Positions 10,202 through 12,355 of a stretch of DNA of 64,000 bases are shown one piece after another; within the stretch, counting starts at the first letter, position 1; each line of letters opens with the position of its first letter. Under the pieces are notes generated by a model, which saw nothing but the letters and a program-made list of their open reading frames with translations, did no database searches and had not been told where the DNA came from. Source of the stretch: an uncultured Bacilli bacterium (GTDB lineage: Bacteria; Bacillota_I; Bacilli_A; RFN20; CAG-826); assembly GCA_944363565.1 (NCBI GenBank), contig CALVUI010000002.1, forward strand, positions 124,001 to 188,000, written 5' to 3'. Position numbers and translations under genes: made by a program.

Positions 10202-12292
10202 CTAAAGGGTGTCGATTTCCTGTAGATACAGGGCCGCACTGGCGTCGCTTGGCATCCGCCAATCACCGCGCGGGGAAATGGCGACGGTCCCGACCTTGGC
10301 CCCATCGGGGAGGCAACTCCGTTTGAACTGGTTGGCGAAGAAGCGCCGGAAGAATTCCCTTAACCATTTCTTGATGAAGGGCGGTTCATAGATTCCCTTA
10401 AAGGTTAGGCAGGCCAGCTTGTAGAGCTTCCGCGGACGATAGAGATAACGGAGATAATGGTAGATGAAGAAGTCGTGGAGTTCGTAGGGCCCGATCTTGT
10501 CCTCCGTCTTCTGGGCGATGTTCCCTTCCTTGTCCGGTGGGAGGAGTTCCGGGGAAATGGGGGTCTCGGCGATGTCACTGAGGGCGGTGGCCGCTTCCGG
10601 ATGCATGAGGGCATAGCCCATCACCAGATACCTGACCAAGGTCTTGGGGATCGAGGCGTTGACCCCATAGGAGGACATGTGGTCACCGTTGTAGGTGGTC
10701 CAACCCAGGCAAAGTTCCGATAGATCACCGGTCCCGATCATGAGGGCGCCCCGCGAATTGGCGATATCCAAGAGGACCTGGGTCCTCTCCCTAGCCTGGG
10801 CATTTTCGTAGGCGATGTCCCCAAGGTCCTGGTCATGTCCGATATCCTTGAGGTGGAGGGAGACCGACTCCTTGATGTTGATCTCCTCGAAGGACACTCC
10901 GAGGGAAGAGGCCAAGAGTTCGGCGTTGTCATGGGTCCGTTTGCTGGTCCCAAAGCACGGCATCGTGATCGCGGAGATGTCAGAAAGGGGGAAGCCTTCC
11001 AATTTGAAGGCCTCGACCGCGACCAAGAGGGCCAAGGTTGAATCGAGGCCTCCGCTGAGGCCGACCACGGCCCTATGGGAATGGACTGCCCTGAGTCTTT
11101 GGGCCAATCCTTCGGCTTGCATCCTCAGGATGGTCCTAACCCGTTCCAAATCGATCTTCCCCTCCGGGACGAAGGGGTTCCTTTGGTATCTCCTTAATAG
11201 ATGATCAGGCTCCTTGATGGGCAAGGGGAAATAGACCTGGTCATAGGTCGAAGAATCTTTCCAAACCGAAGTCAGACGCCTTCTTTCGGCAAGCAAAAGC
11301 TCGAGATCGATGTCCGCGGTCGCTTTTTCCATTTCGAAGACCGGGGTGGAAGAGAGTTTCTTCCCGTTTTCGTAAATGAGACAATGGCCACCGTAGACGG
11401 TGTCGGTCGAGGACTCCCCTCGTCCGGCCGAAGAGTAGGCGTAGGCCGCTAGGAGGCGGGCCGAGGTACTTCCCACCAGTTCCTCCCGGTAGGCGGCCTT
11501 CCCGACCGTTTCGTTGCTGGCCGAGAGATTGAGGATCAAGGTGGCACCTTCCTGGGCCAACTTGGTGGAGGGCGGATCATTGACCCAGAGGTCCTCGCAG
11601 ATTTCGATCCCGATCTTGAGGGAGGGATAATTGGCGTCCACGAGGATGGTCTTGTTGCCAAAAGGCACGAGGTCTTCCGCGAACCTTAGGTTCACGTTAC
11701 TTTCGGGAGCCACCGCGAAATAACGGCCCTCGTAGAATTCCTTGTAACTGGGCATGTTGGCCTTAGGAACAAGGGCCAAGAGGTGGCCGCCCTTGACCGC
11801 GGCCGCAACGTTATATAGACGTCCCCCAAAGAGGAAAGGCAGGCCGATAACCGTCAATAATGATTCATAATCCTTGGATTTTGCGATGATTTTCCGCAAA
11901 TGATCCTCCGCGGAAGATAGCAACGTCTGGTCATAGAAAAGGTCGCCGCAGGTATAGGCGGTCAGACAAAGTTCGGGCAGGACCAAGACATGGACTTCGT
12001 CCTTATGGGCCTCCTCCATCGCTTCGAGGATCTTCTCATAGTTATGCTTCACATCCCCGACCTTGATCTCGATGGGGGCCGCCCTGACCCTTACGAAGCC
12101 CAAGGGGTCGCTTGGTTCCCCAACCCTGTCCCCGTAGATATGAGCCTTTGAATCGGCACTTGTGTCTTTATCTGGAAGGCTGATTACCATGGCTTCTTCC
12201 CCGTTTTTGGTAATGATCAGGGGCTCGCCGTCTTCGATGAGACGGGAGATTTCCTTGGGATCCCTGAGTAAGGTAATGGGTTTGATTTTCAT
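10202..12292 (-). CDS. nadE: Glutamine-dependent NAD+ synthetase with N-terminal Phd/YefM-like domain
   Basis: Converts nicotinate adenine dinucleotide to NAD+ using glutamine. 696 residues. The nitrilase-type glutaminase domain starts near residue 64 (GFVRVRAAP), with the triad Glu107 (LPELCLTAY), Lys177 (VPKANMPSY) and Cys232 (GIEICEDLW). The synthetase domain has the PP-loop GLSGGLDST at 411-419. Unusually, residues 1-45 (KPITLLRDPKEISRLIEDG, then LIITKNGEEAMVI) look like a Phd/YefM antitoxin DNA-binding domain, absent from normal NadE. An 18-base inverted repeat covers the promoter, so autoregulation is possible. No toxin gene is next to it. Confidence 0.94.
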   Translation of the reverse strand: MKIKPITLLRDPKEISRLIEDGEPLIITKNGEEAMVISLPDKDTSADSKAHIYGDRVGEPSDPLGFVRVRAAPIEIKVGDVKHNYEKILEAMEEAHKDEVHVLVLPELCLTAYTCGDLFYDQTLLSSAEDHLRKIIAKSKDYESLLTVIGLPFLFGGRLYNVAAAVKGGHLLALVPKANMPSYKEFYEGRYFAVAPESNVNLRFAEDLVPFGNKTILVDANYPSLKIGIEICEDLWVNDPPSTKLAQEGATLILNLSASNETVGKAAYREELVGSTSARLLAAYAYSSAGRGESSTDTVYGGHCLIYENGKKLSSTPVFEMEKATADIDLELLLAERRRLTSVWKDSSTYDQVYFPLPIKEPDHLLRRYQRNPFVPEGKIDLERVRTILRMQAEGLAQRLRAVHSHRAVVGLSGGLDSTLALLVAVEAFKLEGFPLSDISAITMPCFGTSKRTHDNAELLASSLGVSFEEINIKESVSLHLKDIGHDQDLGDIAYENAQARERTQVLLDIANSRGALMIGTGDLSELCLGWTTYNGDHMSSYGVNASIPKTLVRYLVMGYALMHPEAATALSDIAETPISPELLPPDKEGNIAQKTEDKIGPYELHDFFIYHYLRYLYRPRKLYKLACLTFKGIYEPPFIKKWLREFFRRFFANQFKRSCLPDGAKVGTVAISPRGDWRMPSDASAALYLQEIDTL

Positions 12293-12293
12293 A

Positions 12294-12311
12294 ATGACAA
12301 TATAATGTCAT
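12294..12311. promoter_or_regulatory. Inverted repeat over the nadE -10 region (candidate operator)
   Basis: ATGACA (12294-12299) and TGTCAT (12306-12311) form a perfect six-base dyad with a six-base spacer. It overlaps the nadE -10 TATATT (12299-12304, minus) and also contains TATAAT on the plus strand (12301-12306). A protein bound here would block nadE. The Phd-like domain at the NadE N-terminus is a natural candidate, which is inference. Confidence 0.5.
12299..12304 (-). promoter_or_regulatory. -10 of nadE, leaderless spacing
   Basis: Minus strand TATATT ends six bases before the nadE ATG at 12292. It lies inside the inverted repeat. Confidence 0.5.
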
Positions 12312-12355
12312 AAGTCTGCCTAATCTTCCACCTTAACGGTGCCTATCCTTTTGTG

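Follow-up and report, generated by a model that had tools for sequence, protein, structure and literature searches.

The reverse strand of the window (the whole 64,000-nucleotide stretch analyzed here) carries nadE as an ORF at 10202–12292 (−) that encodes a 696-residue protein, as the original prediction had it. Most of this protein is a glutamine-dependent NAD synthetase (residues 65–696; 10205..12100, (−)): residues 64–695 match the NCBIfam NAD(+) synthase model NF002730 with 780.6 bits, against an equivalog cut-off of 473. The glutaminase triad falls at E107/K177/C232 and the synthetase motif SGGLDS at residues 413–418, and the catalytic columns show no variation in A4, so that the complete glutaminase-synthetase claimed to follow a linker is indeed present. 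The enzyme part, catalytic residues included, is the same as in the long glutamine-dependent NadE proteins of the M. tuberculosis type (NF002730). It is preceded by a variable linker (residues 46–64; 12101..12157, (−)), whose length differs among relatives, and by an N-terminal segment (residues 1–45; 12158..12292, (−)) that had been proposed to resemble Phd/YefM antitoxins. An inverted repeat just upstream of the start codon is a candidate operator, and a RimK-family glutamate ligase gene (TIGR00768; 12353–13249 (+)) is divergent from nadE.

Taken alone, the window’s N-terminus is only suggestive: residues 1–37 match the Pfam model PhdYeFM_antitox (PF02604) with E-values of 9e-5 to 2e-3 and 18–23 bits, beneath the curated cut-off of 29.8 bits, and the match to TIGR01552 (phd_fam) is also weak. 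The domain is among the more diverged ones, and its sub-threshold PF02604 score is a point against our main reading. The assignment is made firm by the profile matches of the relatives, by the antitoxins that they retrieve and by those found with Foldseek. Thirteen of 16 fused N-termini match PF02604, the best with an E-value of 1e-9, and a standalone relative, L088, clears the cut-off at 35.2 bits. The next matches in the family to a profile of the fused N-termini are standalone antitoxins of 80–125 residues, and the same profile retrieves Phd/YefM/RelB antitoxins in the PDB. Had profile searches shown no Phd similarity, the original prediction would have fallen; they did show it. Padloc gave no match for the N-terminal domain, and PHROGs gave a weak antitoxin match alone.

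AlphaFold (AF2) predicts a beta-alpha-alpha-beta-beta fold for residues 2–37 with a pLDDT of about 80 (strand 2–5, helices 6–10 and 12–19, strands 25–29 and 32–37); no ordered structure is predicted beyond the third strand, and pLDDT is low at residues 40–47. Because Foldseek E-values were weak (at least 0.03), as expected for 40 residues, we take the composition of the list rather than the E-value as evidence: ranks 1–41 for the model were exclusively Phd/YefM-type antitoxins, with probabilities of up to 1.00. VIA gave Z up to 5.5 for the domain model. The N-terminal fold and the DNA-contact positions are as in E. coli YefM, phage P1 Phd, and M. tuberculosis VapB46 and Rv2865. In YefM, R10 and R31 are indispensable for operator binding (PMC4803016). 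All 70 fused proteins keep Arg10 and have lysine or arginine at the R31 position, and the basic residue of K/R-N-G is equally universal, K-N-G itself being nearly invariant; the register of R31 comes from an HMM alignment to E. coli YefM chain 2a6q, and that of R10 from its position and the common N-terminal fold. Profile, fold and conserved DNA-contact residues agree, confirming that NadE residues 1–45 are the N-terminal domain of a Phd/YefM antitoxin, and conservation in 70 genomes excludes a chance similarity. One NadE chain combines full catalytic machinery with a Phd/YefM-type domain, one of the two marks of a trigger enzyme of the PutA/BirA kind, the other being repression that switches with a metabolite.

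The same fusion, sought in relatives, was found in 70 of the 279 genomes of one order, in four families, with each start read; within the window’s genus, 29 of 37 genomes have the N-terminal extension. In evenly drawn samples of the class (395 genomes) and the phylum (392), which contain in-order and shared genomes as well, no match to the domain outside the order lay in an open frame of more than 206 residues. In the 80 best loci of a species-genome scan, the alignment of long NadE proteins from Clostridia, Actinomycetota, Spirochaetota and other groups begins only at about residue 65, as does that of the NF002730 members fetched from outside the order, which have no extra domain; the fused genes among these 80 are L173, L174, L186 and L218, the last of which is titled Bacilli bacterium.

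If translation began near residue 60, which the original prediction had named as grounds for abandoning the idea, the first 45 codons would be free of constraint at the protein level. Pooled over 13 pairs of relatives, however, pN/pS was 0.17 for residues 1–46, 0.51 for the linker and 0.19 for the enzyme. The domain is thus constrained as much as the enzyme, and these values together with the conserved starts exclude a start near residue 60. They also bear on the best-surviving alternative, in which the domain is left over from the fusion event that brought the promoter, no longer binds DNA and merely extends the protein. The divergence of the window’s domain and the existence of relatives that keep NadE without the domain would suit such a relic, but its enzyme-like constraint, the universal Arg10 with the nearly invariant K-N-G, and the retention of the operator motif together with the domain make this alternative improbable.

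The original prediction also expected a palindromic operator at 12280–12320. We find one at 12294..12311 (unstranded), ATGACATTATATTGTCAT, an inverted repeat ATGACA-N6-TGTCAT whose 6-bp arms are perfectly complementary; it ends one base before the start codon and has no second exact copy in the 1.26-Mb genome. Between its arms lies a candidate −10 element, TTATAT (12300..12305, (−)), which is proposed by comparison with TGnTATAAT in the relatives and was not called as a −10 by a promoter scan. A possible third, weaker half-site, AGGCA (12317..12321, unstranded), is placed 11 bp upstream of TGACA (12306–12310), with TGTCA at 12295–12299, a phasing that matches the one seen in relatives. In the window (12290–12312) and its relatives within the genus, the operator abuts the ATG and leaves no room for a ribosome site, which suggests that the nadE transcript may be leaderless there; in several other genera a GGAGG-like stretch lies between operator and ATG.

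This motif tracks the domain across the four families. Upstream of all 57 dereplicated fused genes there is an aligned near-palindrome, gaCAtAATaATGnTATAATtATGtCa, with a self-complementarity correlation of 0.83. A matrix trained without the window’s genus recovers 17 of 20 genes of that genus and none of 29 unfused nadE genes. Of the 57 fused genes, 31 have TGNYA pairs spaced by 11 bp, where 0.5 were expected; none of 26 unfused genes has such a pair. Two points count against reading the motif as an operator: its center, TGnTATAAT, doubles as an extended −10 promoter element, and many of the unfused controls sit immediately downstream of a nadD-like gene, where they possibly have no promoter. 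Because of the former, the flanks were also scored without the center: 51 of the 57 fused genes ranked above 95% of flank shuffles (with the matrix trained on the same set), and a matrix-free count found a CA half-site 11 bp before TGNYA in 46 of the 57 fused genes and in none of the 29 unfused ones.

Regulon scans, which were pattern searches, suggest that the motif serves nadE almost exclusively. Over the 37 genomes of the genus, a 27-bp operator pattern gave 18 matches, 16 of them at nadE, and the reversed control gave none. The two other matches, L171, which falls within a coding region, and L172, which has an insertion-sequence-like gene nearby, were judged to be chance, and we rejected a wider regulon. 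These results weigh against a second alternative, in which the domain mainly dimerizes or scaffolds NadE and the upstream motif is a strong promoter or the site of another protein. The N-terminal domain of Phd is a dimerization domain (PMC4803016), and an extended −10 element does lie within the motif; beyond that element, the flanks are nevertheless conserved, phased by 11 bp and absent from unfused genes, the motif is nearly exclusive to nadE, and we found no Phd-family match other than NadE in the window’s genome. We consider this alternative a shade less credible than that of a relic.

The divergent RimK-family gene is found at about 33 fused loci, 37–139 bp from nadE, and the operator could act on it too. 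Sharing the operator with this gene is not a requirement, since fused loci of other genera keep the operator without a match to the gene.

The tree of NadE contains a clade of 12 unfused genes that adjoins the fused L027 and is nested among fused genes (support 96/92). Most of its members follow immediately on a nadD-like gene and have no operator, which looks like a joint loss of domain and operator, although transfer is also possible. The tree needs six label changes, has weak support at depth and does not establish that the fusion arose only once.

Several relatives depart from the common architecture. Four congeneric loci (L112–L115, in G028, G029, G031 and G022) have an unfused, shorter NadE of 553–565 residues with a diverged N-terminal half. 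In L024 and L030, which retain both Phd domain and operator, the glutaminase cysteine of NadE is substituted (ELSED, EVADE); these two enzymes may run on ammonia. At L136 (G243:C9:83000-84600), an NadD-like nucleotidyltransferase (CTP_transf_like, 61.4 bits) is in frame with NadE in an open frame of 856 residues, which places the last two NAD-synthesis steps on a single polypeptide. At L109 (G117:C52:10371-13000), an N-terminal Cro/C1-type HTH (HTH_3, 42.4 bits, over the cut-off) replaces the Phd domain, and an inverted repeat, ACCCAtTGGGT, stands just before TATAAT. Here NadE seems to have gained a DNA-binding domain in a separate fusion event, which suggests that the wiring of NadE to such domains evolved more than once.

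A likely source of the 5′ end of the fused genes is found elsewhere in the class, where standalone antitoxins of the same subfamily have the same upstream motif (15 of 20 above shuffles; for example GTCATAATTATGCTATAATTATGTC at L256). Most of these antitoxin genes are followed by a ParE/RelE-like gene, as read by eye rather than by profile. The operators of YefM are paired TGTACA palindromes placed 12 bp apart over the −10 (PMC7730913, PMC4803016). Since the motif is common to fused nadE and standalone antitoxins and resembles YefM operators, nadE most likely took over its 5′ end from an antitoxin operon, complete with promoter, operator and DNA-binding domain, and the enzyme replaced the toxin-binding tail. 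Phased palindromes over a promoter beside the gene start are the arrangement of autoregulated Phd/YefM operons; the fused nadE shows it and, like the antitoxin genes, is first in its transcription unit.

We therefore propose that the fused NadE represses its own promoter after capturing the 5′ end of an antitoxin operon, and give this reading a probability of roughly 0.8. By gene fusion, nadE would have gained the promoter, the operator and the DNA-binding domain together, and the enzyme would have taken the place of the antitoxin’s toxin-binding tail. Glutamine-dependent NadE enzymes are oligomers. Within such an oligomer the Phd domains would dimerize, and the dimers would bind the half-sites that are phased by 11 bp across the −10 region; the bound NadE would then repress its own transcription, which at a minimum would hold NadE at a set level. 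The original prediction of a Phd/YefM domain, a palindromic operator and repression of the protein’s own gene is supported by these observations, with DNA binding and the link to NAD levels as its inferred parts.

What sets the fused NadE apart from Phd/YefM antitoxins is a 630-residue NAD synthetase in place of the toxin-binding C-terminal segment, and the lack of any toxin partner that we could find. The ParE, YoeB and Fic/Doc toxin families had no match in the window’s genome, and no toxin gene was recognized beside nadE. Repression by antitoxins is usually strengthened by their toxin, so the missing partner is a point against autorepression. It also tells against NadE acting as an antitoxin that holds a toxin through its domain or linker, a very remote prospect that has the domain’s family membership in its favor and, against it, the missing toxin-binding tail, the weakly constrained linker and the toxin families sought without success. 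With the toxin-neutralizing tail replaced by linker and NadE and no toxin families found, we regard the protein as a Phd/YefM member at the level of the domain and not as an antitoxin.

Among characterized proteins, close parallels are the trigger enzymes PutA and BirA, which act as repressors (PMC6978683). PutA, a proline dehydrogenase, represses put, and BirA, a biotin ligase, represses bio; each has its own DNA-binding domain, like NadE, and represses genes of its own pathway, as the fused NadE is a candidate to do. The fused NadE differs in its antitoxin-derived fold, in its enzyme and in that the sole target found is its own gene. Ligand control operates in PutA and BirA and is an inferred possibility for NadE, where binding of substrate or NAD may modulate repression as a third step. 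In such a sensor-repressor, binding of NAD, NaAD, ATP or glutamine would alter the Phd dimers on the operator, and NadE would read NAD status and set its own transcription accordingly; we offer this tentatively, at somewhat less than even odds.

The NAD regulators named in the literature searched are NadR, NiaR and NrtR. NadR of enteric bacteria is an HTH joined to NAD-pathway enzyme domains. All three resemble the proposed system in controlling NAD synthesis transcriptionally, and NadR also in combining a DNA-binding domain with enzymes of the pathway, but they belong to other families and act on other steps or on salvage, whereas here the candidate repressor is the last enzyme of the pathway. 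We found no report of an NAD synthetase with a Phd/YefM domain, another DNA-binding domain or a fusion in the literature searched, which covered few subscription journals; the absence of a report there is weak evidence.

If our reading is true, it would reveal a new way in which the essential cofactor NAD is controlled throughout an order whose members are mostly uncultured gut bacteria. The start of a toxin–antitoxin operon would have been domesticated for housekeeping, its promoter, operator and repressor domain having moved jointly and stayed linked across families. The coupling of DNA-binding domain and enzyme is open to direct test, with the unfused and differently fused relatives as natural controls. 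If NadE were in addition a sensor, the last enzyme of NAD synthesis would sense NAD status through a domesticated antitoxin operon start.
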